A stretch of 64,000 nucleotides of DNA from an uncultured Bacteroidia bacterium (GTDB lineage: Bacteria; Bacteroidota; Bacteroidia; Bacteroidales; UBA932), in NCBI GenBank assembly GCA_902801885.1, contig CADCJX010000012.1:5458-69457 (forward strand), given 5' to 3'. This document shows positions 5,678 through 21,039 of this stretch, one piece after another (position 1 is the stretch's first letter; each line of letters begins with the position of its first letter). The translations under genes were made by a program, and so were the position numbers. Below the pieces are notes generated by a model that saw only the letters and a list, made by a program, of their open reading frames with translations, ran no database searches and was not told the origin of the DNA.

Positions 5678-6655
5678 ATGAATGATCTTGTTTCAATCAT
5701 TGTCCCTGTATACAATGCTGATCGAACATTTGGAGATTTAATTCAGTGTTTGTTCAAACAATCATATGATGAAATCGAGTATGTTTTTGTCGATGATGGT
5801 AGTACAAATGAGTGTATGGCCATCTTATCTGAAATGATAGACCGCTTCCCGCAACGCAAGGATTATGTAAGAGTGATTCACCATGGTGTAAATAAGGGGA
5901 TAGCATCATCCAGGCGGACCGGAGTGCAAGCAGCTAAGGGAACATACATACAATTTGCTGATTCGGATGATATGCTCGACTATGATATGGTATCATATAT
6001 GCATGAATTAATTTGCAACTATCATGCTGATATAGCTGTTTGCGGCTATTCGAGGGAAATGATGACTCATACAAATGAGCAATTGTCCGGTGTCTGTTTG
6101 ATGGAGCCCTATCAATGTATGAAAGATGCCCTATTTGGAGGATCTAATGCTTTGTTATGGAATAAGATGATTCGAAGACAGCTATTTCTGGACAATGAGC
6201 TTTATGCTCCAGAAGGGATGTCAAATTACGAAGATCTTAATCTTATTTACAAAGCTTTCTTTTTTGCAGAGTCTGTGGTTATATGCACTAACAAGTTTTA
6301 TCATTGGCGAGTGAATCTTTCCTCTGTATCACATAATTATTCTAAGAAAGTGGTCTCTCAAGCACCTATGCTTGTTACATCTATTAATCAGATGGAATCT
6401 TTTTTTGATAATAATAGAATCACAGATTCGGAATTAGTGGAAGGTATGATCCATTATGAAAAGCGTGTTATGATAGACTTGGCTTTGTATGGAAATCTCA
6501 CATTTCTTGAAAATAATCGTTCTCTTTTCCACCGTGTTAATTTGAATAGCATACTCCATTCTCAAGGGTTTATATGGTATGCAAATCTTATTGCATTATC
6601 ATTTAAATATAGATTGTACCCTATCTTGTGGTTTTTAAGATTTTTGCGTAAATAG
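5678..6655 (+). CDS. GT2 family glycosyltransferase
   Basis: A 325-residue GT2 transferase. It begins MNDLVSIIVPVYN, has VDDGSTN at about residue 38 and the metal-binding DSDD near residue 95. The region KMIRRQLF and SNYEDLN is typical of bacterial GT2 enzymes that handle polysaccharide repeat units. The ATG at 5678 was chosen over an upstream in-frame TTG because SIIVPVYN normally lies within the first ten residues. There is a 31-nt gap from the LicD gene. The gene is strongly AT-rich, like its downstream neighbour. Specificity is unknown. Confidence 0.86.
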   Translation: MNDLVSIIVPVYNADRTFGDLIQCLFKQSYDEIEYVFVDDGSTNECMAILSEMIDRFPQRKDYVRVIHHGVNKGIASSRRTGVQAAKGTYIQFADSDDMLDYDMVSYMHELICNYHADIAVCGYSREMMTHTNEQLSGVCLMEPYQCMKDALFGGSNALLWNKMIRRQLFLDNELYAPEGMSNYEDLNLIYKAFFFAESVVICTNKFYHWRVNLSSVSHNYSKKVVSQAPMLVTSINQMESFFDNNRITDSELVEGMIHYEKRVMIDLALYGNLTFLENNRSLFHRVNLNSILHSQGFIWYANLIALSFKYRLYPILWFLRFLRK

Positions 6656-6677
6656 TTTGCATAACAATAACCTGAAG

Positions 6678-7727
6678 ATGATAAGTGTTATTATTCCGGT
6701 ATTCAATATAACTAAGAAGCAGCATATTTTTAAAAAAGCAATTCAGTCAGTCAGGAATCAAACATTTTCCGAGTTGGAAATAATAATCGTCAATGATGGT
6801 TCTTCGGATGATTCACAAAGTTTGATCGATCAATTTAAAAGAACGGATCGTAGAGTATACTCATTGGAAAAAGAGAATGGCGGTGTAGAATCTGCGCGTA
6901 GAGAAGGTATTAAAAACGCAAGCGGTGAGTTTATCATCCATATGGATCAAGATGATCTCTATATGCCAGATGCTTTCGAAAGAATGCTTGAAATTGCAAA
7001 TTCATCAGAAGCGGACGTGGTAGTTGCAAATAATAGTAGGTTCTTCTATAATAAAAGATTACAATTTGGCAAAAAAGATACTCCTTCCCTTAAGTATGAA
7101 CAAGTGATAGACCATGACACTTTCATGTCTCATTATTACCAGTCTTTTTTTGGAATTAATGATTTCCCTGTAAACATTTGGAATAAGCTATATCGTAAAT
7201 CTTTTCTTGATTCGATACCTGAACCACCATTGACAAACTGTATCATTGAGGATTTATCATATAATATGCATGTACTCCCTTATGCCAGTCGAATAGCAGT
7301 CATCCCTGATGTTACATATCTTTATCGCTGGGGCGGCTGGACGAATCACTTCGATCCAACTGTGTTAGATACTGCAATAACCGGATACAAGTTGAAAAAG
7401 AATCTTATAGAACAGTATTCTCTTCCTTATATTAAATCAACTTCCATAGAGCTTTTAAACTATCTTAATACTTACTTCTATAACATGCTTGAGTATGAAA
7501 AGGTGTCAGATGCCACATTCAAAGTGGAAGTTAAACGAGTTCTCGGCTTCCCTGAAGTAAAGGAAGCGTGTGCAGTTGTTAAACATGGAATGGAGAGGTT
7601 TCCACATATGGATCCGATAATCAAAGGCGACATTGACGCATTGTATAAGATTGATCAAGCTGTTTTGGATAAGAATCGTCTCCGGAATGCAATGAAAAGA
7701 ATTGCGTTATTCTTTTCGAATCGATAA
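6678..7727 (+). CDS. GT2 family glycosyltransferase
   Basis: A 349-residue GT2 transferase starting MISVIIPVFN, with VNDGSSDDS near residue 37 and DQDD (a variant of the metal-binding DXD) near residue 88. The tail is basic and rich in aromatic residues. The ATG at 6678 was chosen; an in-frame TTG at 6657 would place seven Asn-rich residues ahead of the conserved strand. This is the last gene of the AT-rich block: the gene that starts 5 nt downstream is clearly richer in G and C. Confidence 0.86.
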   Translation: MISVIIPVFNITKKQHIFKKAIQSVRNQTFSELEIIIVNDGSSDDSQSLIDQFKRTDRRVYSLEKENGGVESARREGIKNASGEFIIHMDQDDLYMPDAFERMLEIANSSEADVVVANNSRFFYNKRLQFGKKDTPSLKYEQVIDHDTFMSHYYQSFFGINDFPVNIWNKLYRKSFLDSIPEPPLTNCIIEDLSYNMHVLPYASRIAVIPDVTYLYRWGGWTNHFDPTVLDTAITGYKLKKNLIEQYSLPYIKSTSIELLNYLNTYFYNMLEYEKVSDATFKVEVKRVLGFPEVKEACAVVKHGMERFPHMDPIIKGDIDALYKIDQAVLDKNRLRNAMKRIALFFSNR

Positions 7728-7731
7728 TTTC

Positions 7732-8925
7732 ATGCCCAAACTCATCCGCGTCACGACCGTTGATCTGAGCCTCCATGTGCTGCTGGAGGGACAGCTCGGG
7801 TTCCTGAACAGGGAGTTCGAGGTGGTAGGCGTGGCTGCTGACACGGGGCTGCTGAAGGCAGTGGGGGATCGGGAAGGAATAAGGGTGATCGATGTGCCGA
7901 TGCATCGTGAGATAGCCTTATGGTCGGACATCAAGTGCCTATGCCGGCTTGTCAGGATATTTAAGAAAGAAAAGCCTTTCATCGTCCATTCCAACACTCC
8001 GAAGGGAAGCCTCCTTTCCATGATAGCGGCCAAGTTGACAAGGGTGCCGAACCGGATATATCTGGTGACTGGATTGCGGTTCCAGGGGGAGAGGGGAGCC
8101 AAGAGATGGCTTCTTAAAACCATGGAACGGATCGCCTGCTCCTGTGCGACCAAGGTCATACCGGAAGGACATGGAGTGAAGAAGACCCTCAAAGAGGAGG
8201 GAATCACCCGGAAGCCGCTTGATGTTGTGCATAACGGCAACATCAACGGAATTGAATTGGCGTATTATTCCCCTGAGGCGTGCCCAAAGTCGAGGGAAGA
8301 GATGAGGCGGGAGCTGGATCTAGGGGAGGATGATTTTGCGTTCGTGTTCATCGGGAGGATCGTGGGGGATAAGGGAATGAATGAGTTGGCGGAGATCCTT
8401 CGCTGCGCTCAGGATGACAAAGGTTGCACAGGTGATGGCAGCGGTTGTACTCAGGATGGCAAGGGGGACGCTTTGAGTGATAGGTGCAAACTGATCCTTG
8501 TGGGGCCGTTTGAGTCGGAACTGGATCCATTGGAGGGAAGGAATGAGGAGTTCTTCAGGATGAGCGGGAATGTGCGGTACGTCGGGTATCAGAGCGATGT
8601 ACGACCTTATCTGCTTGCAGCGGATGCACTTGTGTTCCCTTCGTATCGCGAGGGATTCCCGAATGTGGTGATGCAGGCCGGGGCGATGGGGCTGCCTTCG
8701 ATAGTCACCGACATAAACGGCTGCAATGAAATCATCATCGAAGGGGAGAATGGCCGTATTATCCCTCCTCGGGATAAGGAGGCGCTCGGGAATATGATGG
8801 CTTGGTTCGCTGAGCATCCTTCAGAAGTCGCCAGGATGGCCGCCAATGCCCGCGAAATGATTGCCTCCCGCTACGACCGGCAGGATGTCTGGAACGCTCT
8901 ACTGGAGATGTATAAATCACTGTAA
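7732..8925 (+). CDS. GT4 family glycosyltransferase carrying an in-frame palindromic-repeat insertion
   Basis: A 397-residue GT-B fold transferase. The N-terminal part starts MPKLIRVTTVDLSL and includes HSNTPKGSL; the donor domain has FIGRIVGDKGMNELAE, then KLILVGPF, and the EX7E-type FPSYREGFPNVVMQAGA. This pattern fits GT4 enzymes of capsule and exopolysaccharide loci. Between AEI and KLILVG lies an unusual segment of about 25 residues (starting LRCAQDDKG) rich in Gly, Asp, Cys and Gln, encoded by the repeat at 8394-8419 and sequence just after it. That site is normally a short linker, so the enzyme may tolerate the insertion. The ATG at 7732 follows the previous stop by 4 nt. Confidence 0.85.
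   Translation: MPKLIRVTTVDLSLHVLLEGQLGFLNREFEVVGVAADTGLLKAVGDREGIRVIDVPMHREIALWSDIKCLCRLVRIFKKEKPFIVHSNTPKGSLLSMIAAKLTRVPNRIYLVTGLRFQGERGAKRWLLKTMERIACSCATKVIPEGHGVKKTLKEEGITRKPLDVVHNGNINGIELAYYSPEACPKSREEMRRELDLGEDDFAFVFIGRIVGDKGMNELAEILRCAQDDKGCTGDGSGCTQDGKGDALSDRCKLILVGPFESELDPLEGRNEEFFRMSGNVRYVGYQSDVRPYLLAADALVFPSYREGFPNVVMQAGAMGLPSIVTDINGCNEIIIEGENGRIIPPRDKEALGNMMAWFAEHPSEVARMAANAREMIASRYDRQDVWNALLEMYKSL
8394..8419 (+). repeat. Short palindromic dispersed repeat, copy 1 (inside a gene)
   Basis: A 26-bp unit with arms GATCCT and AGGATGACA around the core TCGCTGCGCTC. It is read in frame as ILRCAQDDK in the GT4 gene; the opposite strand would read CHPERSEGS. A related unit is at 13139-13184 and a diverged intergenic unit at 17366-17391. 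From general familiarity, similar sequences recur in many bacterial genomes; this was not checked here. Confidence 0.7.
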
Positions 8926-8929
8926 TTAC

Positions 8930-8970
8930 ATCCACTATAATCGGTCACCGGTTTTAGTGGATGATTTTTT
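8930..8970 (+). terminator. Intrinsic terminator after the first polysaccharide gene block
   Basis: A long inverted repeat (ATCCACTA ... TAGTGGAT with an inner CGGT/ACCGG pairing, about 16 bp with two mismatches) starts 4 nt after the GT4 stop codon and is followed by a run of six T residues at 8965-8970. This has the form of a rho-independent terminator and marks the end of the upstream operon. Confidence 0.75.
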
Positions 8971-8975
8971 ATTAT

Positions 8976-8983
8976 TATATTTG
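8976..8983 (+). promoter_or_regulatory. -7 promoter box for the ATPase gene
   Basis: TATATTTG matches the Bacteroidota -7 consensus TAnnTTTG and lies 17 nt before the ATG at 9001. No clear TTG is seen at the ideal -33 spacing, so the match is partial. Confidence 0.5.
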
Positions 8984-9000
8984 CCTAAACTAAAGTAATA

Positions 9001-10133
9001 ATGAAAGACAATCCGTTCATAATCAAGGGTTACAAATCGCAGATCTGTTTTGTGATAGGGAGAAGGAGACCGAAAAGATACTGAATCTTATCCAAAATTC
9101 GGTTGACATTACACTGATTTCACCAAGAAAATTCGGCAAATCTGGACTGATTCGTCATGTTTTCAATCAGATTTCCCAGCGCAATCTCGACTACAAAACA
9201 ATCTATGTCGACATTTTTTCTACTCTGAATCTAAATGAGTTCATAAAGTCTCTCTCTGAAGCGATTCTTGAACAATTTCCTGAGAAAACGGCTATTGGAA
9301 AAAAGTTCTTCCGGCTTTTGAATTCTTTCCGACCGTTGTTTTCTATTGATCCTCTTTCGGGAAATCTTCAACTGTCGTTTCAGTTCTCTTCGACGTCCGA
9401 ACAAGAAACTTCCTTGAAGCAGATTCTTCAGTTCGTGAATAACCAAGGTTCTAAGGTCGTACTGGCAATTGATGAATTTCAGCAGATTGTTTATTATCCT
9501 GAAAAGAACGTCGAAGCTTTGCTCCGTGAGCAAGTTCAGAACATGCACAATACCAGGTTTATCTTTTGTGGCAGTAAGTCCTCGATGATGAGAGAGATAT
9601 TCGCTGACGCTAAGCGCCCATTCTTTTCCAGTACCCGACAGATAGAAATTGGCAAGATTGACAGTGATCCTTATGCTAAGTTCATTCTTGATAAATTCAC
9701 ATCTGCCGGCCGAGCCATTGACGAAGAATCAGTTGCCTTCATCCTGATGTGGACAAAGAGACATACATACTACACACAAGTTCTTTGTAATGAATTATTT
9801 GCTACTGGAAAAAAGAACATCTCCATTAAAGATGTCCATAAAGTGTGTGACGAAGTCTTAGAGGAGAATGAATCTACTTACATGCAGTATAGGGCACTGC
9901 TGACACAGCAGCAATGGCGCTTTTTGATTGGCCTGGCTAAAGAAGATGAAGTTTTTCAGGTTTATTCCTCAGGCTTTGTGTCAAAGTATAAAATCGGAAA
10001 TTCCACAACCTCTGCCAGAGCTGCGGAATCATTGGTAGATAAAGAGTTGGTGCTTAAGACAATATATAAAGATAAAACTAGCTATCAAGTTTATGATCCT
10101 TTTTTCTCTCGGTGGTTAGCTAGGGAATATTGA
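9001..10133 (+). pseudogene. ATPase_2-family AAA ATPase broken by a single-base frameshift
   Basis: The ATG at 9001 opens a frame reading MKDNPFIIKGYKS and then hits a stop at 9082-9084. From GAT at 9042 the -1 frame stays open to 10133 and reads DLFCDREKETEKIL, then the Walker A-like SPRKFGKSGL, Walker B LAIDEFQQI, and a C-terminal winged-helix-like part. Adding one C near 9040 restores a continuous protein of about 377 residues (KSPDLFCDRE), as expected for the archaeal-type ATPase (ATPase_2) family found across Bacteroidales. It is either a decaying gene or a sequencing error; the rest of the frame shows no other damage. It has its own promoter box and is more AT-rich than the following genes. 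Function of the family is unknown. Confidence 0.8.
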
Positions 10134-10134
10134 T

Positions 10135-10725
10135 ATGTACAAATTTGCACACTTTCTAAGGGATCATCTGCCGTTCATCTGGGACTTCTTGGACTGGATG
10201 AATGGAGTGCTTTTTACATGGCTGTACGGCAGGAAGATGAAGGCTTTGCCGGGGCTCCTTGAAGCGGTGGCAGGGGAGTATAAGATCGTCGAAATGTCAT
10301 CTATCCAAGCAACTGATCTGGAGAGGTTTTTCGCTGCTCAGCCGGAGGAAAGCTTCAAGTTCTTCAAGCCTCATGGATTCGACGCAAAATCCCTCCGTAA
10401 ACTACAGCGGAACAGGGCTTTTCTTGCTTACATAGTGAAATATGACAACTCCCCAGTTGGATACTTTTTCCTGCGCAGTTTCTTCTTCGGGAAAGCGTAT
10501 CTGGGTAAGATGGTTGACCACGATCATCAGGGAAAAGGGATCGGCAAGATGATGTGCCTCTGCGCCATGGACATCGCGTCGACCCTTGGTCTCAGGATGT
10601 TCGAGACTATCTCGAAAGACAATCCTTCCTCTTTGTACTCTACTCAGAATGTGCTCGAGACAAGAATAGACGAGGAAATGCCTGACAATTATCTTATGAT
10701 CGAAGACCTTAGGAGGAAAGAATAA
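10135..10725 (+). CDS. GNAT-fold N-acetyltransferase
   Basis: A 196-residue protein whose central part holds the acetyl-CoA pyrophosphate loop of GNAT enzymes: VDHDHQGKGIGKMM near residues 126-139 (pattern Q-x-x-G-x-G/A). The preceding strand AYIVKYDNSPVGYFFL also fits. The first 35 residues are hydrophobic and aromatic and may bind the membrane. Its stop overlaps the start of the initiating sugar transferase (TAATG). With the DegT aminotransferase and CapD-type dehydratase downstream, acetylation of a 4-amino sugar (as WecD and PseH do in other species) is a reasonable inference, not shown directly. Confidence 0.8.
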   Translation: MYKFAHFLRDHLPFIWDFLDWMNGVLFTWLYGRKMKALPGLLEAVAGEYKIVEMSSIQATDLERFFAAQPEESFKFFKPHGFDAKSLRKLQRNRAFLAYIVKYDNSPVGYFFLRSFFFGKAYLGKMVDHDHQGKGIGKMMCLCAMDIASTLGLRMFETISKDNPSSLYSTQNVLETRIDEEMPDNYLMIEDLRRKE

Positions 10726-11360
10726 TGTGGCTTAAATGGTTGTTTGACAGATTCGTCGCCCTGATCGGACTTATCTTTCTGAGTCCGGTGCTCCTTGTCG
10801 TGGCCGTTCTCGTTGCCGTCAAGACGCCAGGCGGCCCAGTCATATTCAGTCAGAAACGAGTCGGCAAAGACGGCAAGTTGTTCACGATAAGGAAGTTCAG
10901 GACGATGGCCGCGAACCATGGCGGCTCATCAGTCTCGGTGGCAGGGGAGTCAAGGATCACCACTCTGGGCGCGAAATTGCGCCACTACAAGCTTGATGAG
11001 CTTCCGGAGCTATGGAACGTCCTCAAGGGCGATATGAGTTTTGTCGGCCCGCGGCCTGATGTTCCTGGCTACGCTGACCAGCTCAAAGGAGAGGATAGGG
11101 AAGTGCTCAAACTACGTCCTGGAATAACCGGTCCTGCCACTCTTAAGTACCGTGACGAGGAAGACCTCCTTGCCAGGGTCGTAAAAGAAGGGATCGATGG
11201 CTACACCGATCCCGTGAAATACAATGACGAAGTCATCTTCCCTGACAAGGTCCGTCTTAACCGGTTCTACCTGAACCACTATTCTTTCTGGTCAGACATC
11301 AAGATGCTTTTCGCAACCGTCCTTGGCCGCCGTATCGACTACGCCGGCGAACGGATCTAA
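10725..11360 (+). CDS. Initiating phosphosugar transferase (PglC/WcfS-like, bacterial sugar transferase family)
   Basis: A 211-residue monotopic transferase that would move a sugar 1-phosphate from a UDP-sugar to undecaprenyl phosphate, starting repeat-unit synthesis at the inner membrane. The N-terminal hydrophobic re-entrant helix covers about residues 8-33. Family motifs follow in order: PVIFSQKRVGKDGKLFTIRK, KFRTM, LDELPELWNVLKGDMSFVGPRP and LRPGITGPA. The short length, without extra N-terminal helices, matches the PglC-type rather than the WcaJ/WbaP type. Translation is probably coupled to the GNAT gene. Its end overlaps the convergent sulfatase by 4 nt. Confidence 0.92.
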   Translation: MWLKWLFDRFVALIGLIFLSPVLLVVAVLVAVKTPGGPVIFSQKRVGKDGKLFTIRKFRTMAANHGGSSVSVAGESRITTLGAKLRHYKLDELPELWNVLKGDMSFVGPRPDVPGYADQLKGEDREVLKLRPGITGPATLKYRDEEDLLARVVKEGIDGYTDPVKYNDEVIFPDKVRLNRFYLNHYSFWSDIKMLFATVLGRRIDYAGERI

Positions 11361-12946
11361 TATTCATCCACCTTTAATTCTACCCTGAACTTATCCAACT
11401 GCTTCTGGAGCCTGCTTATGCGGCGGGCATAGCGACCCTCAGCGATGCAGTTGTGCATCTCCTGCGGATCCTTCCTGAGATCATAGAATTCGTTGTAATC
11501 TCCGTTTTCTCCACCATAGAAATGAATAAGCTTGAAGCGCTTGTCGGACACGCCGTCATGCTTCAGGACGTTGTGCTCCGACGGCAGGTCGTAGTAGTGG
11601 TAGTACATGTACTTCCTCCACCGCAGCGGCTGTCTTCCTGAATGCTTGATGACCGGCATGAGTGACCTTCCGGACATCTCTTCTGGTTTGTCCACGCCGG
11701 CAACGTCCAGGTAGGTCGGGGCAAAGTCCAGATTCTGGACAAAGGCATTTGACACAAGACCGCCCTTCCCTCCAGGATAGCGGATGATGAGGGGAGTCCT
11801 GAATGACTCTTCGTACATGAACCTCTTGTCGAACCATCCGTGCTCTCCCATGTAGAAGCCCTGGTCGGAAGTGTAGACCACGATCGTGTTGTCCGCAAGT
11901 CCGTGGGTGTCAAGATATTCGAGGATCTCGCCGACCGAATCGTCCACGGAGCGGATGCATCTCAGGTAATCCCTTACATATCGCTGGAACTTCCATTCGA
12001 GGAGTTCCTTCCCCTCGAGATTGCTCTCCAGGAAAGCCAGGTTCCTAGGCCCGTAGGCGGCCTCCCACTTGGCCCTGGAGACTGAATCCATCCTGTTGAG
12101 TCCGTTCAGCAAAGCCCTTTTGGGATGCGGGGCTCCGGTGGGCTCCACGTCCAGTTCTTCCACTTTCAGGTCATAGATCAGGGTCATGTCCTTGTCGACC
12201 GTCATTTTTTGGACATGCGCGGCCTCTCCCTTGTCTGACCATGTGTCATAGTAATTGTCCGGGATGGGGAAGGTGACATCTTCGTAGAGGTCGAGGTATT
12301 TGGTTGAAGGCATCCAGTTGCGGTGCGGTGCCTTGTGATGGACGTAGAGGCAGAAAGGCTTGTCTGGGTCCCTTTGCTCCAGGAAATCTATTGCATGGGC
12401 CGTGACTCTTTCGGTTGCATAGCCTTCTTCCGGGAGATACTGTCCGCCGGAAAGGTGACTCTTGAAAGTAGGGGTGTAGTATTCGCCCTGGCCGCGGAGC
12501 ACATAGAACCAGTCGAAGCCCTTTGGCTCGCATTGCATGTGCCATTTGCCGACGATCGCGGTCTGGTAGCCGGCATCGCGCAGAAGTTCCGAGACGAAGG
12601 TGACCGTAGTGTCAATTCCTTTGCCGAGTGTACGCTGGCCGTTTTGGTGGCTGTAGAGTCCGGTCATCAGGCAGGCGCGGCTGGGAGTCGAAAGGGAATT
12701 CTCGACATAGGCTTTGTCGAACCTGATCCCTTCACTGGCAAGGCGGTCCATGTTGGGCGTGGGAGCCTGGCGGCTGAGAGGGTGACCATAGGCACTGAGA
12801 GCCTGGTAGGAGTGGTCATCCGTCATGATGTGGATGATGTTCATCCTTTTCGGAGCATCTTTCTGCTGGGCAGCTGCCATAGGAGCCAGAGCCGGCAGTG
12901 CGGCCAGAAGGAGGCCGTAGGGAATAGGGTTCGGTAGGTGTTCCAT
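11357..12946 (-). CDS. Exported Ser-type S1 sulfatase
   Basis: A 529-residue sulfatase. The signature STPSRACLMTG (about residues 86-96) carries Ser at the position converted to formylglycine, so an anaerobic sulfatase-maturating enzyme (anSME) would be needed; none is in this window. The metal site MTDDHSYQALSAYG is close to the N-terminus, and HGWFDKRFMYEESFRTPLIIRYPG is typical of the family. A signal peptide (residues 1-25, ending AAAQ) is seen from the ATG at 12946, chosen over an upstream in-frame start that would give 28 unlikely residues. It faces the polysaccharide genes from the other strand. The desulfated substrate is unknown. Confidence 0.9.
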   Translation of the reverse strand: MEHLPNPIPYGLLLAALPALAPMAAAQQKDAPKRMNIIHIMTDDHSYQALSAYGHPLSRQAPTPNMDRLASEGIRFDKAYVENSLSTPSRACLMTGLYSHQNGQRTLGKGIDTTVTFVSELLRDAGYQTAIVGKWHMQCEPKGFDWFYVLRGQGEYYTPTFKSHLSGGQYLPEEGYATERVTAHAIDFLEQRDPDKPFCLYVHHKAPHRNWMPSTKYLDLYEDVTFPIPDNYYDTWSDKGEAAHVQKMTVDKDMTLIYDLKVEELDVEPTGAPHPKRALLNGLNRMDSVSRAKWEAAYGPRNLAFLESNLEGKELLEWKFQRYVRDYLRCIRSVDDSVGEILEYLDTHGLADNTIVVYTSDQGFYMGEHGWFDKRFMYEESFRTPLIIRYPGGKGGLVSNAFVQNLDFAPTYLDVAGVDKPEEMSGRSLMPVIKHSGRQPLRWRKYMYYHYYDLPSEHNVLKHDGVSDKRFKLIHFYGGENGDYNEFYDLRKDPQEMHNCIAEGRYARRISRLQKQLDKFRVELKVDEY

Positions 12947-12969
12947 GGTGTTGAAAATGTGGTGTAACA

Positions 12970-12977
12970 CAAATATA
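12970..12977 (-). promoter_or_regulatory. -7 promoter box for the sulfatase gene
   Basis: On the minus strand TATATTTG matches TAnnTTTG and lies 23 nt before the chosen ATG at 12946, which supports that start. No -33 element is clear. Confidence 0.45.
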
Positions 12978-12982
12978 AATAT

Positions 12983-12990
12983 TATCTTTG
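12983..12990 (+). promoter_or_regulatory. -7 promoter box for the DegT aminotransferase gene
   Basis: TATCTTTG matches the consensus and ends only 4 nt before the ATG at 12995, so the transcript may begin at or next to the start codon. It is divergent from the sulfatase promoter box 5 nt away. Confidence 0.5.
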
Positions 12991-12994
12991 TAAT

Positions 12995-14278
12995 ATGAAT
13001 AATAAAAGAATATACCTCTGTCTCGCTCATATGAGCGGCAACGAGATGAAATATATCCAGGAGGCGTTTGACACCAATTGGGTTGTGCCGCTCGGGCCGA
13101 ATGTCAATGCGTTCGAGGAAGAGTTGAAGAGGTTCGTTGATCCTTCGGCTGCGCTAGATCCTTCGGCTGCGCATCAGGATGACAGGGAAGTGGTGGCGCT
13201 GAGTTCGGGGACGGCGGCGGTTCATCTTGCTTTGATCGCTTGCGGAGTGGGACCCGGCGACGAGGTTATGGTGCAAAGTTTCACTTTCTGCGCTTCGTCT
13301 CATCCTGTTACCTACTTGGGAGCGACCCCGGTGTTCGTCGATTCTGAACCTGATTCATGGAATATCGATCCCGACCTGCTGGACAAAGCCATCGCAGACC
13401 GCATCGAGAAGACCGGCCGCAAGCCCAAGGCCATCATTCCCGTGGCCTTGTACGGAATGCCATACCGGATCGACAGGATCATGGAGATTGGATGCAAGTA
13501 CGGCATCCCCGTCATCGAAGATGCAGCAGAGGGCTTCGGAAGCCGTTTTGAAGGCCAAATCCTGGGGACTTTCGGGGAATATGGCATCTTGAGTTTCAAT
13601 GGAAACAAGATGATTACGACCTCCGGCGGTGGAGCTCTGATCTGCCCCAGTCTGGAAGCCAAGAACAAGATCATGTGGTACGCCACCCAAGCCAGGGAAG
13701 GCTATCCATACTATCAGCACGAGGCGATAGGCTACAACTATCGTCTTTCCAACATCTGCGCCGGTATCGGCCGTGGCCAGATGACGGTTCTCGAGGACCA
13801 TCTGGCTCATCATCGCCATGTCCAGAAGATGTACGAGGATCTTCTGGCTGATGTCAAGGGATTGCATGTCCATGGCCAGGAAGATCCTCGTTTCGATTCG
13901 AATTTCTGGCTCTGCACCCTGACTCTTGATGAGGATTTGAAGATCAAAGGACAGGAGAGGGCGTATGCTGAGGCGATTACCAAAGCAATAGGCGGCGCGG
14001 CGGGTGTTATCCATGCCGGAGGAGGAGTCCACACCGACTGCGAACCGAACGCCAATGTCGAAGCGATCAGGATGTTCCTTGATGAGGCCGGAATCGAGGC
14101 CAGGCCGCTCTGGAAACCTATGCATAAGCAGCCTGTCTACAAGGATTCTCCCGCCTATGTCAACGGCGTTTCTGTAGGTGTATTCAAAAAAGGCCTATGT
14201 CTTCCTGCTGGCCCTTGCGTTACCGAAGACGATGTCCGCTACATCGCAGGAAAGATAAAAGAGGCAATTGATTGCTGA
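12995..14278 (+). CDS. DegT/DnrJ/EryC1/StrS aminotransferase (PglE/WcfR-like)
   Basis: A 427-residue PLP enzyme of the sugar aminotransferase family. VALSSGTAAVHLALIACGVGPGDEV, FVDSEPDSWNIDP and the PLP-lysine block SFNGNKMITTSGGGAL (Lys near residue 205) are diagnostic. These enzymes aminate UDP-4-keto-6-deoxy sugars; PglE and WcfR are known examples. The substrate is probably the product of the CapD-type dehydratase at 15408. Near residues 49-64 the protein holds a repeated peptide DPSAAL/DPSAAH then QDDR, which comes from a palindromic repeat (13139-13184) inserted in frame where homologues have a short connection. The ATG at 12995 is kept because IYLCLAHMSGNE looks like the conserved start. 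Confidence 0.9.
   Translation: MNNKRIYLCLAHMSGNEMKYIQEAFDTNWVVPLGPNVNAFEEELKRFVDPSAALDPSAAHQDDREVVALSSGTAAVHLALIACGVGPGDEVMVQSFTFCASSHPVTYLGATPVFVDSEPDSWNIDPDLLDKAIADRIEKTGRKPKAIIPVALYGMPYRIDRIMEIGCKYGIPVIEDAAEGFGSRFEGQILGTFGEYGILSFNGNKMITTSGGGALICPSLEAKNKIMWYATQAREGYPYYQHEAIGYNYRLSNICAGIGRGQMTVLEDHLAHHRHVQKMYEDLLADVKGLHVHGQEDPRFDSNFWLCTLTLDEDLKIKGQERAYAEAITKAIGGAAGVIHAGGGVHTDCEPNANVEAIRMFLDEAGIEARPLWKPMHKQPVYKDSPAYVNGVSVGVFKKGLCLPAGPCVTEDDVRYIAGKIKEAIDC
13139..13184 (+). repeat. Short palindromic dispersed repeat, copy 2 (inside a gene, with an 18-nt tandem duplication)
   Basis: The unit GATCCTTCGGCTGCGC occurs at 13139-13154 and again at 13157-13172 (period 18 nt, six codons), followed by ATCAGGATGACA. 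The arms match those of copy 1 at 8394. The frame is kept, adding about 15 residues to the aminotransferase. Confidence 0.7.
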
Positions 14279-14283
14279 ATCTG

Positions 14284-15366
14284 ATGGACAACCGCACTGG
14301 ACTTTTCTGCTCCCTCCTGAAGGCCGGGCTCTGGAATGAGACTCTTGACATCCATCTCGATAAAGACGAATTCAAGAGTGTCTGGAACGATGCGACCCGT
14401 CAGGTCACCAGGGGACTGATAGCAAGTGCGCTGGTTTCATCCAATGCCGTACCTCCAAAGGTGGTCGACCGCCTTCAGGACCAACTGCTGAAGATCGCCG
14501 GAGAAAACCTGAAGATGGGGAATGTACTCGCCCAGTCCGTCGGGGCTCTTCGCAGGGAAGGGATAGACCCGGTCCTTTTGAAAGGTCATGGTGTCGCATC
14601 ATTCTATAAGGTTCCAATGCTCCGTGAAAGCGGAGACATCGACCTCTACGTAGGTCAAGTGAACTACCGGAAAGCATTCGACACACTTGTTGCCATGACG
14701 GAGGCTCCGGAATCATTTGAATTCGAGGAACACAGCAAGCATTCCCATGTGGAGATCAATGGCATAACCGTAGAACTTCACCGGTTCTGCGAGGTCCTCC
14801 CGAGGAGATACGACCGCTTCTTCCAAGATGTGGCCCTCAAAGGATTGTCAACAGGGCTTGACCATGTCGCATTAGAAGACATCACGGTCAATACGCCTGA
14901 GCCCACATTCAATGCTTTCTTCCTGTTCAACCACCTTTGGCGTCATTTCGTGACGGAAGGCGTAGGATTGCGGCAGGTTTGCGACTGGACAATGTTCCTT
15001 CATGCCAAGGCCGGTGAAATCGACCGCAGCAGGCTTGAATCCATCATTCGCTCTCTCGACCTGCTGAAAGCATGGCAGGTTTTCGGCCGCGTGGCTGTGG
15101 ATGTCCTGGGCCTCCCTTTCGAAGAGATGCCTTTCGACGAGCCATCATATTCCTCTAAGGTCCCCGGACTGGTGGCCATGATGATCAAGGAAGGTAATTT
15201 CGGACATGAAAGGGAGGACTGGTGGACTGTACCACGGGAGTCTTTCTTCGACAATGTTCATGTCTTCTTCATGATTGCGCAGCGCTATTTTGGCCTTGTT
15301 CCGTCTTTCGGCAGTGTCGTTGTCCATGAATATCTTGACCGGATGCGCAGGAAGTTCTTAGGATAG
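14284..15366 (+). CDS. Nucleotidyltransferase-fold protein (NTP_transf_5 type), function unknown
   Basis: A 360-residue protein. The segment DPVLLKGHGVASFYKVPMLR followed by ESGDIDLYVG near residue 115 has the G-D-I-D-L pattern of the nucleotidyltransferase fold (metal aspartates), as in the NTP_transf_5 family. Members are common in polysaccharide loci of Bacteroidales, but their reaction is not established. A second block, HSHVEINGITVELHRF, also fits the family. It begins 5 nt after the aminotransferase stop; the ATG at 14284 was taken over an overlapping TTG at 14272. No signal peptide or membrane helix is seen. Confidence 0.75.
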   Translation: MDNRTGLFCSLLKAGLWNETLDIHLDKDEFKSVWNDATRQVTRGLIASALVSSNAVPPKVVDRLQDQLLKIAGENLKMGNVLAQSVGALRREGIDPVLLKGHGVASFYKVPMLRESGDIDLYVGQVNYRKAFDTLVAMTEAPESFEFEEHSKHSHVEINGITVELHRFCEVLPRRYDRFFQDVALKGLSTGLDHVALEDITVNTPEPTFNAFFLFNHLWRHFVTEGVGLRQVCDWTMFLHAKAGEIDRSRLESIIRSLDLLKAWQVFGRVAVDVLGLPFEEMPFDEPSYSSKVPGLVAMMIKEGNFGHEREDWWTVPRESFFDNVHVFFMIAQRYFGLVPSFGSVVVHEYLDRMRRKFLG

Positions 15367-15388
15367 GGAATAATTGGATTTTATTTAT

Positions 15389-15396
15389 TAACTTTG
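15389..15396 (+). promoter_or_regulatory. -7 promoter box for the CapD-type dehydratase gene
   Basis: TAACTTTG matches TAnnTTTG and lies 11 nt before the ATG at 15408, in the 41-nt gap after the nucleotidyltransferase gene. No good -33 element is seen. Confidence 0.4.
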
Positions 15397-15407
15397 ACAA
15401 ACAACTT

Positions 15408-17327
15408 ATGAGAAGCATTCGGGAACTGATTGACTGGTACTTTTCGAAAGGGGCATTGCCATATTGGTGTGTCCTTCTTTTCGATTGCCTGGTCATCGTG
15501 TTTTCGAGCATGCTCGTTTACTGGGCCTTGTACAGCGCCTCCTTCCTGCTCGGTAACTTCCTGCCCTTGATGAGGGTCATGGTCATCTACCTCTTAGTGA
15601 CATGCGTTTTCTTCAGGTTGTTCAAGACCTACACCGGGATTATCCGGTATTCTTCTTTCAATGATCTGGTCAGGATTGCGATGGCGATGGCATCAGCCCT
15701 CTTTGTCGCCCTTATCATCCATTATCCCCTCAGCGGCACGCCGCCGACTCTTTTCGTCCACTTGACTGCCAGGGCCCTGATCCTGATCTACCTTCTTTCC
15801 ACGGCTCTGATGTGGTTGGCTAGAATCGTCATAAAGGCCATCTACGATGCCTATTTCCGGACTGAAGCTGCAGTCAATGCCTTCATCTATGGCATCCGTG
15901 CCGGAGGGATAGGACTTGCAAAGTCTGTCCGTGGTGAGAAACCAATGCGCTACCGTGTCAAAGGCTTCATCTCACACGATCCCTCCCTTCATGCGAAAGG
16001 AACCGTCCTTTTAGGTGAGCCAGTCTTCGATGTCGACGAATCCCTTCCGGAGGAGATGGAAAAGCGCAGAGTGAAAGCGGTCCTGGTTGCTCCTGGAAGA
16101 GTCGAACGTTTCAGGGAAGACACTGTACTTCAGGATTATATCCTTAAGACTGGGGCTAAGATATTTTTCTCCCAGGCTGCTGTCGAATGGGACAAAGACT
16201 TAATTGAAGGGACTCCTACTATCCGGGAGGTCCGGATTGAAGACCTTCTTCCCAGGGATGAGATCCAGGTTGACATGGACTCTGTCGAAACTGCACTTAG
16301 GGGGAAGAGGATTCTAATTACGGGTTCTGCCGGAAGCATCGGCAGCGAGATCGTCCGCCAGGTGGCCTCTTTCGGTCCCTCAGAGATGGTGCTCATCGAT
16401 TCGGCAGAAACCCCTCAGCATGACATCCGTCTTATGATGTCGCGTGAGTTTCCTACGGTCAAGGCTTCCACTATCGTGACCAGCATTGTCAACACCACGC
16501 GGATGGAGGCCATATTCAAGGACTTCCGACCTGAATATGTTTTCCATGCCGCAGCCTATAAGCATGTCCCGATGATGGAGGACAATCCTTCTGAGAGCGT
16601 GCTCAACAATGTCGAGGGCACGAAGATCATAGCCGACCTGTCCGTCAAGTACGGTGTCGGCAAATTCGTTATGATCTCCACAGACAAGGCGGTGAATCCT
16701 ACGAATGTGATGGGATGCTCAAAGCGTATTTGCGAGATCTACGTCCAGAGTCTTGACAAGGCTGAGGCTGAGGGAAAGGTTGAAGGACATACCCGTTTCG
16801 TGACGACACGCTTCGGTAACGTGCTTGGTTCCAATGGCTCCGTTATCCCAATTTTCGAAAAGCAGATCAAGGCTGGCGGTCCTGTCACCGTCACCCATCC
16901 CGACATCGTTCGTTATTTCATGCTTATCTCTGAGGCTTGCAAGCTCGTTCTTGAGGCTGCAGCCAAGGGCAGGGGAGGCGAGATTTTCGCCTTTGACATG
17001 GGTAAACCTGTCCGTATCGCAGATCTGGCAAAGAGGATGATCGCTTTGAGCGGAGCTGGTAACATCGAGATCAAATACACCGGCCTCCGTGATGGAGAAA
17101 AGCTCTATGAGGAAGTCCTTGCGTCAGAAGAAGCAACCAAACCGTCTTTCAATGACAAGATAAGGATAGCGGAAGTCCGCGAGTACGATTATTCCCTTGT
17201 CAATGACCAGATAGAGAAGCTCATCAACGTCTCGAAGGCTTACGACGACCTCAAGACAGTGGCTGCGATGAAGCGTATTGTTCCTGAATATGTGAGCAGC
17301 CACTCTGTCTATTCCGTTCTGGATTAG
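15408..17327 (+). CDS. Membrane-bound UDP-sugar 4,6-dehydratase (CapD/WbpM/PglF family)
   Basis: A 639-residue protein with four hydrophobic helices in the first 150 residues, a CoA-binding-like middle domain and a C-terminal extended-SDR domain. The Rossmann motif ITGSAGSIGSE is at about residues 303-313. The active-site block NPTNVMGCSKR (about 429-439) has Met instead of the usual Tyr of the YxxxK pair, which is the norm for this inverting/non-inverting dehydratase family. It would convert UDP-GlcNAc to a UDP-4-keto-6-deoxy sugar at the inner membrane. With the DegT aminotransferase, GNAT protein and PglC-like transferase it completes a 4-amino-sugar route. It is the last polysaccharide gene. 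Confidence 0.93.
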   Translation: MRSIRELIDWYFSKGALPYWCVLLFDCLVIVFSSMLVYWALYSASFLLGNFLPLMRVMVIYLLVTCVFFRLFKTYTGIIRYSSFNDLVRIAMAMASALFVALIIHYPLSGTPPTLFVHLTARALILIYLLSTALMWLARIVIKAIYDAYFRTEAAVNAFIYGIRAGGIGLAKSVRGEKPMRYRVKGFISHDPSLHAKGTVLLGEPVFDVDESLPEEMEKRRVKAVLVAPGRVERFREDTVLQDYILKTGAKIFFSQAAVEWDKDLIEGTPTIREVRIEDLLPRDEIQVDMDSVETALRGKRILITGSAGSIGSEIVRQVASFGPSEMVLIDSAETPQHDIRLMMSREFPTVKASTIVTSIVNTTRMEAIFKDFRPEYVFHAAAYKHVPMMEDNPSESVLNNVEGTKIIADLSVKYGVGKFVMISTDKAVNPTNVMGCSKRICEIYVQSLDKAEAEGKVEGHTRFVTTRFGNVLGSNGSVIPIFEKQIKAGGPVTVTHPDIVRYFMLISEACKLVLEAAAKGRGGEIFAFDMGKPVRIADLAKRMIALSGAGNIEIKYTGLRDGEKLYEEVLASEEATKPSFNDKIRIAEVREYDYSLVNDQIEKLINVSKAYDDLKTVAAMKRIVPEYVSSHSVYSVLD

Positions 17328-17365
17328 GATCCCTTGTAGAAGTTTATTTGAGACTGAGCAAAAGT

Positions 17366-17391
17366 GATTCTTCACTTTGTTCAGAATGACA
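17366..17391 (+). repeat. Short palindromic dispersed repeat, copy 3 (intergenic, diverged)
   Basis: A 26-bp unit with arms GATTCT and AGAATGACA lies in the 183-nt gap between the dehydratase and iorA. Against copy 1 the two arms have changed together (ATCCT/AGGAT to ATTCT/AGAAT), so pairing is kept. The remainder of the gap shows nothing else I can name. Confidence 0.6.
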
Positions 17392-17510
17392 GTCGGCCTC
17401 TTTCTATTTTTATTTGCTAGTCCAAATAATAATTAAAACTGAAAGAAATTTTTGATTATTAGGATTTTTTTGTAACTTGAGGTCGCAGTAACACGATAAC
17501 TTTTAAACTA

Positions 17511-19136
17511 ATGGCTGATAAATTTCTTTTGCTAGGCGATGAGGCTCTCGCGCTCGGTGCTTTGCATGCCGGCCTGTCAGGAGTCTACGCTTATCCAGGT
17601 ACTCCATCGACAGAGATCACGGAGTACATCCAGAATCATCCTCTCACCAAAGAGAGAGGAATCCACAGCGTATGGTGCACCAATGAGAAGACTGCCATGG
17701 AAGCGGCCTTGGGAGTTTCCTATGCAGGTAAACGAGCACTTGTCTGCATGAAGCACGTCGGTATGAATGTCTGTGCCGATGCCTTTGTCAATTCCGCGGT
17801 GACGGGAGCCAACGGCGGCCTTGTCATCGCAGCTTGTGACGATCCTTCTCAGCATTCTTCCCAGAACGAGCAGGACTCCAGGTTCTATGCAGACTTCGCC
17901 ATGATGCCATGTTTTGAGCCATCGAACCAGCAGGAGGCCTACGACATGGTTCAGGAAGCCTTTGACTATTCCGAGGCCAACCATATTCCTGTACTCATCA
18001 GGTTGACCACCCGCATGGCTCACTCCCGCGCTGTGGTGAAAGCCCGCGCTCCACGCCCTCAGAACGAGATGCATTTCCCTCCTAAGGACATTGCGAAGTA
18101 CTGGGTTACACTTCCGGGCATCTCACGCGTGAAGGTCAAGGAACTTGCCGAAGTCCAGCACAAGTTCCGTCATGATTCGGAACTTTCGGAGGACAACTAC
18201 TATGAAGGAGGCCCGGATCACAGCCTGGGCATAGTCACCTGTGGCATTGCTTATAACTATCTCATGGAGAACTTCCCGGATGGTTGCATCTATCCTACCC
18301 TTAAGGTAACGAGATATCCTTTCCCCACCAAGCTTCTTCGCAGGATGACTGAGTCCTGCAAGACCATCCTTGTGATCGAAGAAGGCCAGCCACTAATCGA
18401 AGAGCGCCTGCGAGGCATCCTGTATGATGAGGAAGAAGGCAACGGAAAGATATTCGTAAAAGGAAGGCTGGACGGGACCCTGCCCAGGACCGGCGAGTTG
18501 AATCCTGACTACATCCGCAAGGCTCTTGGTTTGAAGTCTGGAGAGACTTTCGCTGTGTCTGACAAGACGGTCGCACGTCCGCCAGCACTCTGTCAGGGCT
18601 GCGGCCACAGGGACTTCTACACGGCGCTCAATGCAGTGCTTGCCAAGTACGAAGGATCAAGGGTTTTCGGGGACATCGGCTGTTACACCCTTGGTTACAT
18701 GCCTCCTTTCCATGCCATCCATTCCTGCGTGGAGATGGGAGCCTCGCTCACCATGGCTATCGGAGCTGCCAATTCCGGAGTCTGGCCTTCAGTCGGAGTC
18801 ATCGGGGATTCCACCTTCACCCACAGCGGCATGACGGGCCTTCTCGATGCTGTCAATTCCAATGCCGACATCACTCTCTGCATTTCCGACAACCTGACAA
18901 CTGGTATGACCGGTGGACAGGATTCTGCCGGAACCGGAAAGCTGGAGATGATCTGTGCCGCGATCGGAGTTCCTGAAGAGCACATCCGAACCATTATCCC
19001 CCTGCCGAAGAACTATCCGGACATGGAACGGGTGATAGAAGAAGAGATCAATTATCACGGAGTTTCCGTAGTGATCTGCCGCCGGGAATGCATCCAGACG
19101 GCGAAGCGTCATGCGGCAGCTAAAAACAGGCAGTAA
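17511..19136 (+). CDS. iorA: Indolepyruvate:ferredoxin oxidoreductase, alpha subunit
   Basis: A 541-residue TPP enzyme. It begins LLLGDEALALGALHAGL and YAYPGTPSTEITEYI, the standard IorA N-terminus. The C-terminal TPP domain has PPALCQGCGHRDFYTALNAV, FGDIGCYTLG and GDSTFTHSGMTG. IorAB oxidatively decarboxylates 2-keto acids from aromatic amino acids to aryl-acetyl-CoA, reducing ferredoxin. Unlike many IorA proteins of about 600 residues, this one stops right after the TPP domain and has no C-terminal CxxCxxC ferredoxin-like domain. It heads a tight four-gene unit with iorB, an aminotransferase and a CoA-transferase. The start follows a 183-nt gap with no clear promoter box. Confidence 0.92.
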   Translation: MADKFLLLGDEALALGALHAGLSGVYAYPGTPSTEITEYIQNHPLTKERGIHSVWCTNEKTAMEAALGVSYAGKRALVCMKHVGMNVCADAFVNSAVTGANGGLVIAACDDPSQHSSQNEQDSRFYADFAMMPCFEPSNQQEAYDMVQEAFDYSEANHIPVLIRLTTRMAHSRAVVKARAPRPQNEMHFPPKDIAKYWVTLPGISRVKVKELAEVQHKFRHDSELSEDNYYEGGPDHSLGIVTCGIAYNYLMENFPDGCIYPTLKVTRYPFPTKLLRRMTESCKTILVIEEGQPLIEERLRGILYDEEEGNGKIFVKGRLDGTLPRTGELNPDYIRKALGLKSGETFAVSDKTVARPPALCQGCGHRDFYTALNAVLAKYEGSRVFGDIGCYTLGYMPPFHAIHSCVEMGASLTMAIGAANSGVWPSVGVIGDSTFTHSGMTGLLDAVNSNADITLCISDNLTTGMTGGQDSAGTGKLEMICAAIGVPEEHIRTIIPLPKNYPDMERVIEEEINYHGVSVVICRRECIQTAKRHAAAKNRQ

Positions 19137-19138
19137 TT

Positions 19139-19726
19139 ATGAAACAGGACATCATACTTTCAGGCGTTGGAGGACAAGGAATCCTTTCGATTGCCACGGT
19201 CATAGGTTGGGCCGCACTTGAAGAGAACCTCCATCTCAAGCAGGCGGAAGTCCATGGAATGAGCCAGAGGGGAGGCGACGTCCAGAGCAACCTCCGCCTT
19301 TCTTCCGAGGCCATATTCAGTGACCTGATTCCGAAAGGGGAGTGCGACCTCATCCTTTCGCTTGAGCCGATGGAGGCCTTGAGGTATCTGCCATGGCTCT
19401 CCAGAAGGGGCTGGATCGTGACCAATACAACTCCTTTCGTGAATATCCCTAACTATCCTCCTATTGAAGAGGTCATGGAAGCGCTTTCAGCCGTTCCGAA
19501 TGTCATCACTCTCGACTGCGATGCCATTGCACGCGAGACCGGATCTCCCCGGAGCGCGAATATGGTTCTGCTCGGAGCTTCAGCCGCAGTCCTTGACATC
19601 ATATCCCCTGAAAAACTGCGGGAGGGTATTGCAGCAATCTTTTCCCGCAAGGGTGAGGCCATCGTCGCGGCTAATATAGCGGCTTTCAATGCCGGATTGG
19701 AAGAATCTAAAAAGTTTGTGAAATGA
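19139..19726 (+). CDS. iorB: Indolepyruvate:ferredoxin oxidoreductase, beta subunit
   Basis: A 195-residue gamma-domain partner of IorA. The motif ILSGVGGQGILSIATVIG at the N-terminus, then AEVHGMSQRGGDVQSNLRLS, is typical of the IorB/POR-gamma family. It begins 2 nt after iorA, and its TGA overlaps the ATG of the aminotransferase (ATGA), so translation is likely coupled. It is cytosolic, with no signal peptide. Together with IorA it forms the 2-ketoacid oxidoreductase that produces an acyl-CoA for the downstream CoA-transferase. Confidence 0.93.
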   Translation: MKQDIILSGVGGQGILSIATVIGWAALEENLHLKQAEVHGMSQRGGDVQSNLRLSSEAIFSDLIPKGECDLILSLEPMEALRYLPWLSRRGWIVTNTTPFVNIPNYPPIEEVMEALSAVPNVITLDCDAIARETGSPRSANMVLLGASAAVLDIISPEKLREGIAAIFSRKGEAIVAANIAAFNAGLEESKKFVK

Positions 19727-21039
19727 AAGTGATTTCTAAAGCCAGCCTGGACGATGTCCTGAGGGGCATGAATATAAATGACATTTCTCATGCAACGATC
19801 AGGCAGTGTGTCAACATTGCCCAGGAACTGGAACGCATCTCCGGAGAGAAGTTTGTGCATCTAGAATTCGGTGTCCCAGGGATCAAGGCCTCCCAGTTCG
19901 GTGTAGACATGCAGAAACTGGCGCTTGATGCCGGTATAGCAGCTGTCTATCCGCCGACTGCGGGTATTCCAGAATTCAAGTGGAACGCCTCAGCCTTCAT
20001 CAAGGCCTTTGTAGGGGTCGACATCTTCCCGGACTGTGTGGTCCCGACAGTCGGTTCCATGCAAGGCTGCTTCAATCTCCTGATGGAGTGTTCCCAGCTT
20101 CATCCAGACAGGACGGCCGTAATCTACATCAGTCCCGGCTTTCCTTCGCATTATCTCCAGGCTAAGGTCCTCGGCCTTGAGCAAAGGACCTTCGACATCT
20201 ACGACAATCGTGGGGAGAAGTTGGGCGCCAAGCTTGAGGAACTGATGTCTGACGGAAAGGTCTGCGCCATTGTCTATTCCAACCCCAACAATCCTTCATG
20301 GGTCAACCTGACGGAAGGTGAATTGAAGACTATCGGTGAATTGTGCACCAAGTACGACGTGATCGCCCTTGAAGACATGGCCTATCTTTGCATGGACTTC
20401 AGGAAAGACATGTCGAAGCCTTTCCAGCCTCCGTTCCAGCCTACGGTCGCACGCTACACCGACAATTGTGCCATCATGATCTCTGCTTCCAAGATCTTCA
20501 GCTATGCAGGAGAGAGGGTAGGCCTGGTGGCCATGTCAAAGAAACTGTACGATCGGGAGTATCCTGAATTGAAAGCCCGCTATGGACTGGCTGGTTTTGG
20601 AGAGAATTTCGTCCTTACCTTTATCTACGTCAACACTTCAGGTTGTTCGCGTTCTGCTCAGAACGCAATGTCCGAGATGATGGAAGCTTCTGTCAGTGGA
20701 AAATACGATTTCGTCGCCGAGATGAGGGAATATGCCCGGAGAGCCCATCGGGCCAAGGAAATATTCTTCAAGCACGGCTTCTCCCTCGTCTACGCCAAGG
20801 ATCTGGACCAGGATGTAAGTGACGGCTTCTTCTTCACGATTGGCTACGATGGCATGGATGGAAGCCGTCTGCTCTATGACCTGATGCGTTGTGGAATCTG
20901 CGCCATAACCTTGACAGCCACCAGAAGCAATCAGCAAGGGCTCAGGGTCTGCGTGTCGATGCTTAATTCGGACGAAGATTTCGCCCTCCTTGACGAGCGG
21001 CTGGGCCAGTTTGCCGACCTTCAAAAATCAGAAAGCTAA
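19723..21039 (+). CDS. PLP-dependent class I/II aminotransferase (probably aromatic amino acid)
   Basis: A 438-residue fold-type I aminotransferase. VYPPTAGIPEFK matches the N-terminal substrate loop, YSNPNNPSWVNLT holds the PLP-contacting Asn, and SASKIFSYAGERVG holds the PLP Lys and phosphate-binding Arg. The gene overlaps iorB by 4 nt and is followed 5 nt later by the CoA-transferase. The likely role, inferred from position, is removal of the amino group of Phe, Tyr, Trp or a branched-chain amino acid to give the 2-keto acid used by IorAB. The exact substrate cannot be read from the sequence. Confidence 0.85.
   Translation: MKVISKASLDDVLRGMNINDISHATIRQCVNIAQELERISGEKFVHLEFGVPGIKASQFGVDMQKLALDAGIAAVYPPTAGIPEFKWNASAFIKAFVGVDIFPDCVVPTVGSMQGCFNLLMECSQLHPDRTAVIYISPGFPSHYLQAKVLGLEQRTFDIYDNRGEKLGAKLEELMSDGKVCAIVYSNPNNPSWVNLTEGELKTIGELCTKYDVIALEDMAYLCMDFRKDMSKPFQPPFQPTVARYTDNCAIMISASKIFSYAGERVGLVAMSKKLYDREYPELKARYGLAGFGENFVLTFIYVNTSGCSRSAQNAMSEMMEASVSGKYDFVAEMREYARRAHRAKEIFFKHGFSLVYAKDLDQDVSDGFFFTIGYDGMDGSRLLYDLMRCGICAITLTATRSNQQGLRVCVSMLNSDEDFALLDERLGQFADLQKSES

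Follow-up and report, generated by a model that had tools for sequence, protein, structure and literature searches.

A dispersed 27-nucleotide palindrome lies in frame in a variable loop of a DegT-type aminotransferase of a Bacteroidia bacterium, its left half most probably duplicated in place

RESULTS

The window, i.e., the whole 64,000-nt stretch (64 kb) of Bacteroidia DNA that was analyzed, encodes a PglE-like aminotransferase that matches the Pfam family DegT_DnrJ_EryC1 with 275 bits, above the cut-off (Table 1). The closest solved structures are PglE (PDB 4ztc) and 1o61, which we take to be the same Campylobacter enzyme, and the host protein has its fold and sequence family in common with these PglE-type aminotransferases. 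The best NCBIfam model is that of the LegC family, and membership in it was rejected since the score of 321 bits lies under the cut-off of 420. A Bac_transf sugar transferase (above the Pfam cut-off) and a UDP-GlcNAc 4,6-dehydratase-like protein, for which all listed NCBIfam scores are below their model cut-offs, are encoded in the neighborhood, and these genes fit a nucleotide-sugar or exopolysaccharide locus. The relatives of the aminotransferase by protein are Bacteroidia, mostly labeled Bacteroidales, and a plasmid search with the protein gave more distant homologues only.

Table 1. Features of the analyzed locus (positions in the window)
Feature	Position	Strand	Description
E1 copy 1	8393-8419	+	0 mismatches to consensus; in frame in a GT4-type glycosyltransferase (EILRCAQDDK)
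Three 21-nt units	8402-8464	+	By eye, right half of copy 1 multiplied in tandem
Sugar transferase	10725-11360		Bac_transf
Aminotransferase	12995-14278	+	DegT/DnrJ/EryC1/StrS type, 427 aa, PglE-like
Compound E1 copy	13139-13184	+	Left half twice (period 18), then right half; encodes DPSAALDPSAAHQDD
Unit 1	13139-13156	+	18 nt, six codons, GATCCTTCGGCTGCGCTA
Unit 2	13157-13174	+	18 nt, runs into the E1 right half
Loop	13139-13189	+	Codons 49-65 of the aminotransferase, 17 aa
Dehydratase-like protein	15408-17327		UDP-GlcNAc 4,6-dehydratase-like
Third E1 copy	17365-17391	+	Older, intergenic, 4 mismatches; between the dehydratase gene and the next gene

Residues 49 to 63 of the 427 in the aminotransferase read DPSAAL DPSAAH QDD (DPSAALDPSAAHQDD) and stand immediately before VVALSSGTAAVHL. 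In the DNA, GATCCTTCGGCTGCGC is found at 13139-13154 and again at 13157-13172, with 0 mismatches and a period of 18, and ATCAGGATGACA follows directly after the second copy (13173-13184). The preliminary description had given this sequence, its period, the ATCAGGATGACA end, and the place of the peptide, all of which were confirmed on the letters. It had also regarded the stretch as the same element as copy 1, lying in frame with a tandem duplication that preserves the frame, and this is upheld by our assignment, through the family consensus, to an element that we call E1. At up to 3 mismatches the 16-mer is not rare within the 64-kb window alone, where 17 of 100 shuffles had at least two matches; chance does not account for the exact 16-mer pair at a distance of 18 nt or for the counts over the genome. 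Both 18-nt units contain CTTCGGCTGCGC, which has one G more than the consensus CTTCGCTKCGC, and since the extra G is common to both units, it suggests copying in place.

E1 is a dispersed palindrome. E1 is an imperfect palindrome of 27 nt (nine codons) with the consensus AGATYCTTCGCTKCGCTCAGRATGACA, dispersed through the genome. At up to 3 mismatches, the consensus was found at 74 places in the 2.46-Mb genome (G000, a 31-contig draft) versus 0 for the reversed control, and the core TGCGCTCAGGATGACA was found at 129 places versus 4 for the reversed pattern. All 68 core places with at most 2 mismatches were fetched and read, and 57 of them held a complete element of fixed spacing that departs from AGATYCTTCGCTKCGCTCAGRATGACA by no more than 4 mismatches (the limit was set at 5). 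The borders are sharp at 27 nt, the only conservation outside them being a weak G behind the element (39 of 68). The consensus folds into an outer stem of 5 bp, followed by a 2x2 mismatch, a further 2 bp, and a 3-nt loop. Since its folding energy is that of a weak hairpin (z of -0.8), we used covariation as the evidence for the hairpin. Among the 57 copies, stem pair 5-21 is CG in 33, TA in 21, and TG in 3, while pair 10-16 is GC in 50, AT in 6, and AC in 1. Paired positions thus change together, which indicates that the palindrome is maintained as a palindrome. In the intergenic copy of the window, pair 10-16 is A-T instead of G-C, and the third 21-nt unit behind copy 1 holds an extra right arm that the scan detected at offset 42.

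The occurrence of the element in two genes of one locus had appeared notable at the outset, as if the locus were a target. This did not hold up: 74 copies in 2.46 Mb predict about 1.9 per 64 kb, so that two E1-bearing genes in one locus are close to what chance would give.

With the 27-nt borders taken as exact, the direct repeats abutting E1 were 0 to 1 nt long in 56 of the 57 copies and 6 nt long in one. Two matches to Y1_Tnp (IS200/RAYT type) were found in the genome (L141 and L142), both barely above the Pfam cut-off, and the loci fetched around these two genes, with about 1.5 kb on each side, were free of E1 cores when up to 3 mismatches were allowed. Mobility of E1 is therefore putative, given that neither an abutting target-site duplication nor an E1 core beside the Y1 genes was seen. 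An Rfam search of positions 6000 to 20000 at the gathering threshold gave no match. A literature search for the encoded peptides and a consensus stretch, which covered few subscription papers, returned nothing relevant; the letters SAAKDL occur in a peptide-design paper.

The spread of E1 is patchy. In a sample at the level of the order, 33 of 198 genomes, own genome included, matched the 27-mer at one or more places when up to 3 mismatches were allowed, with 74 matches in the own genome and 50 to 62 in three others; there were none in G130 and G248, the single further genomes of the genus and of the family, respectively, in that sample.

E1 inside genes. Thirty-seven of the 57 full copies (65%) lie inside open reading frames (ORFs) of at least 150 aa with at least 10 aa on each side. 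For random places in the same 62 loci the figure is 5220 of 6200 (84%), and E1 is thus depleted in ORFs, as would be expected if many insertions are harmful. Two of the three reading frames of E1 are open on each strand, i.e., four of six overall, so that insertions into genes can survive, and only two phases per strand are used by the 37 copies. These copies correspond to 33 ORFs, 30 of which were scanned against Pfam (left out were L005, which is the window's own glycosyltransferase, L011, and L027). A family above the cut-off was found in 23 of the 30, in L013 and L022 only by weak PD40 matches; L004 had matches only below the cut-off, and six ORFs had none (L003, L153, L028, L146, L157, and L161). 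Among the 23 are the ORFs for EPSP synthase (AroA), UvrB, cysteinyl-tRNA synthetase (CysS), FtsA, S-adenosylhomocysteinase (SahH), diaminopimelate epimerase, and a UbiE methyltransferase. E1 stands between or behind the matched domains in several of them (e.g., UvrB, CysS, and FtsA) and within a matched domain in others (e.g., AroA, UbiE, and DcuC). In the uvrB copy (L020, 170-2077, minus strand), it is in frame behind the UvrB domain, and REPs in uvrB of R. conorii are also mentioned in the sections of PMC3733652 considered here.

CysS and AroA were compared across the genus, with 14 further genomes supplying orthologues, of which one for AroA was too short. The E1 stretch varies in both length and sequence among the orthologues, with the E1 peptides present in G072 and G042 and absent in G033 and the other rows shown. 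In AroA of G042, E1 lies at a shifted position, perhaps as the result of a separate event. No base-exact empty site was found in CysS or AroA, the orthologous stretches being too variable.

The loop is variable and has taken up other repeats. Of 592 confirmed loci, 80 were kept, and 79 relatives were aligned after removal of the partial L110. The loop between RFV and VVALS has 5 aa in 30 of the 79 and 6 to 42 aa in 49, and with L034 as the reference the E1 loop is the position at which the largest number of sequences have inserts. In both alignments of solved homologues, 13 residues are absent at the E1 loop in the PglE-type structures (1o61 and 4ztc). It had been conceivable that many DegT enzymes carry a similar peptide here, and this was not borne out: DPSAA was found at the site in 0 of the 79 relatives, and the only other carrier of the insert that we saw was G072, in a comparison of the loci whose loop was recognized by its pattern, a set without L125, L126, L129, and the distant L130 to L140. 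In a structure model with the insert, residues 52 to 61 have a pLDDT below 50 and lie between a helix (37-48) and a strand (65-69); the mean pLDDT is 72, i.e., of moderate quality, and the model therefore gives a rough placement of the loop, which is probably exposed on the surface.

The repeat patterns seen in the loops were counted in 24 distinct genomes. The two carriers of the E1 loop were also the two genomes richest in E1 core places (129 and 186), the next having 61 and the reversed-pattern background being at most 21. The genome with 61 is that of L036, whose loop is at most suggestive of an origin from E1. In L031, the closest other relative (88%; genome G033), the loop insert at 6136-6177 contains GTTCGACAAGCTCACCAAC, which at up to 2 mismatches has 14 places in G033, the loop copy included, with 0 for the control and at most 3 in each of the other 23 genomes. 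Inserts of a CCCC..GGG-type palindrome are present in L064, L066, L077, L082, and L085, with 6, 16, 14, 7, and 21 genome matches, respectively. Since the inserts themselves served to define the pattern, the total of each carrier includes its own insert, and overlap has caused a few matches to be scored twice. The pattern also had 10 and 8 matches in G119 and G120, the genomes of the look-alike inserts of L101 and L107; among the remaining 17 genomes, 16 had 0 and one had 1, and the control was 0 in all 24. The L075 insert holds CCCTGAGCCCGTCGAAGGG, found at up to 3 mismatches at 62 places in its own genome and also abundant in three genomes without it in the loop (74, 61, and 54). L063 was left uncounted as a carrier of a CTCGCAATGACG repeat, since its own genome has the exact pattern at a single place, with 2 mismatches at each of 10 more, and is surpassed by two other genomes (15 and 19). 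The longest insert, of 42 aa (L090, 1355-1480), and those of L060, L109, and L045 are repeat-like by eye and were likewise uncounted.

Loop segments of at least 30 nt from 46 relatives and the window, 47 in all, were also matched against the flanking sequences of the loci as one pool. With a minimum of 36 bits, one of five thresholds, those above 30 bits having been chosen after the 30-bit result, 7 of the 47 segments had a match versus 1 of 940 same-length control segments of the same genes; L064, L077, and L082 are near-identical and match the same copy, which leaves 5 independent cases of the 7. At 30 bits, the flank-only test was weaker (12 of 47 versus 79 of 940). This loop has captured unrelated repeats several times. 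Targeted insertion is unnecessary as an explanation, since a permissive loop and survival suffice, and the sections of PMC3733652 considered here describe an earlier case of this kind from Xanthomonas, where two recB genes carry different REPs at nearly the same position.

Half-element duplications inside ORFs mostly keep the reading frame. The aminotransferase of the sister species G072 is 97% identical in protein, with about 90% DNA identity in the region. The same two 18-nt units are present at the orthologous place in G072, with CCTCAGG for CATCAGG in the window, and the insert differs by one residue (H/P). The 18-nt duplication thus predates the split of the window species and G072.

In the own genome, 18 of the 57 copies have an extra half-element within 10 to 60 nt, while control stretches 300 to 350 nt away had one left and one right arm, i.e., at most 2 of 57 copies. 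The exact doubled-end pattern was found at 30 places in G072, 11 in G042, and 4 in G000 and at none in G033 and the controls. These 45 places returned 30 loci, in which we counted 27 separate arrays from the three genomes. All 20 arrays that lie in ORFs have a period divisible by 3 (15, 18, or 21), compared with 2 of the 7 outside (Fisher P of 0.0003), and the difference remained (17 of 17 versus 2 of 7; P of 0.0005) without the G072 orthologue and the arrays that lack an upstream TGTCA. With looser arms and one offset per copy, multiples of 3 in the own genome made up 11 of 12 in-gene periods versus 3 of 6 outside, the sole exception among the 12 being L157, with 17 nt. The test is conditioned on intact ORFs, i.e., it says that survivors keep the frame and nothing of whether duplication itself occurs in codon steps. 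Selection for frame, which the preliminary description had called plausible for this copy, is hereby supported at the level of the E1 family.

DISCUSSION

Repeats that reside in frame in genes are best known from Rickettsia, and E1 is a much shorter case in Bacteroidia. Rickettsia palindromic elements (Ogata et al. 2000) are described in the sections of the review PMC2229807 considered here as dispersed palindromes of 105 to 146 bp with long stem-loops, in frame within genes of conserved proteins. E1 is alike in being a dispersed palindrome in frame in conserved genes and differs in its 27 nt, its 5-bp outer stem, its occurrence in Bacteroidia, and its tandem growth by half-elements. The aminotransferase copy belongs to a genome-wide pattern that resembles the gene-invading Rickettsia repeats. 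What E1 offers in addition is its residence in housekeeping genes, a visible step of growth, and a clear frame signal, in a group with many sequenced relatives.

E1 also has features of the CGTC-tagged REPs. In the sections of PMC3733652 considered here, these have stems of 8 to 9 bp and loops of 4 to 5 nt (with some deviating loops), one end with an unpaired CGTC (or TGTC/CCTC), a stem starting with AT, and a short tail, mostly CCA, at the other end; the superfamily is described from several phyla, Bacteroidetes included, intragenic units are known, and a dedicated transposase is not. On its minus strand, E1 likewise starts with an unpaired TGTC followed by AT. Its other end has an unpaired tail of 2 nt (CT on the minus strand, in place of CCA). 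However, its stem of 5 bp, a 2x2 mismatch, and 2 bp fits only when the mismatches are counted, and its loop of 3 is outside the limits; for these two reasons, we do not file E1 as a CGTC REP. Most published REPs are intergenic according to the same sections, in contrast to the 37 of 57 E1 copies in ORFs, and we found no mention of half-element arrays there. With the GTAG REPs and their RAYT transposases, E1 shares the form of a short dispersed palindrome and differs in having no GTAG end and no core in the two Y1_Tnp loci. MITEs have terminal inverted repeats and a target-site duplication, and E1 was rejected as a MITE because of the direct repeats of 0 to 1 nt at 56 of its 57 copies.

It is very probable that the stretch at 13139-13184 is a dispersed E1 in a permissive loop, whose left half was duplicated in place by 18 nt under the constraint of the reading frame. 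E1 would have landed in the loop that joins the second helix to the strand preceding the SSGT motif; this loop accepts peptides of widely differing length in the enzyme family, and within genes the lasting arrivals would generally be those that are in frame, free of stops, and in tolerant places. Single-strand insertion of the IS200/IS605 type leaves no target-site duplication, and the absence of such duplications at E1 would fit an insertion of this kind. Once E1 was in place, and while the window species and G072 had not yet separated, 18 nt of the left half would have been duplicated in tandem. Replication slippage is the probable cause, and later slippage could add further half-elements. 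Inside genes, such additions would persist almost exclusively in lengths divisible by three, since any other length would disrupt the gene.

A compound with two left halves that was ready-made and moved into the aminotransferase gene as a unit would give the same arrangement, and similar compounds with an 18-nt period are indeed seen at other places, AroA of G072 and further ORFs among them (30 in G072, 11 in G042, and 4 in G000). The periods of such compounds vary, however (15, 17, 18, 19, 21, 22, 23, and 24), and their linkers differ; the extra G of CTTCGGCTGCGC, present in both units, has no counterpart in the family consensus; and a frame bias that is seen in ORFs only fits growth in place under selection. 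We therefore regard import as a unit as unlikely. The retention of the insert in two species with only one residue changed (H/P) could also mean that it has been co-opted for a function in contact, regulation, or stability, with selection acting on the peptide and not on the frame alone. Against this, an unrelated repeat occupies the same place in the closest other relative (88%), 30 of 79 relatives manage with only 5 aa, and residues 52 to 61 are modeled with low confidence. Co-option thus seems quite improbable, and the effect of the insert on the enzyme is presumably near neutral.

That the peptide is ordinary length polymorphism with an accidental likeness to a repeat would agree with the range of 5 to 42 aa in this loop among 79 relatives, yet two exact 16-nt stretches and a 12-nt end match a genome-wide repeat for which the control counts are near zero, the two genomes with an E1 loop rank highest in core places among 24 (129 and 186; next, 61), and loop segments match flanks in 7 of 47 cases (5 independent) versus 1 of 940 at 36 bits, which makes such a coincidence extremely improbable. 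An assembly or binning artefact, which the preliminary description had already considered for the two units and which the draft state of the genome (31 contigs) might invite, is scarcely credible, since the separately assembled G072 (97% protein and about 90% DNA identity) carries both units and differs from the window by the C/A base just behind them.

Having weighed these alternatives, we prefer duplication of a resident E1 in place, and a wider reading can tentatively be proposed, although we think that it is somewhat more likely to be wrong than right. Certain loops in conserved enzymes of Bacteroidia may be recurrent landing places, in which unrelated repeats (E1, GTTCGACAAGCTCACCAAC, the CCCC..GGG palindromes, CCCTGAGCCYGTCGAAGGG, and others) replace one another without loss of frame and lengthen by whole codons. 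If this is true, the repeats of a genome would continually supply such loops with new peptides. Whether such repeats are passengers or raw material for protein change is a question that can be tested directly in sister species whose repeats in one loop differ. A further observation concerns L229 of G072, where a 599-aa ORF contains a triple tandem array of an 18-nt half-element (SAAKDLGAAKDLGAAKDLGA), whose copy number may vary among strains.
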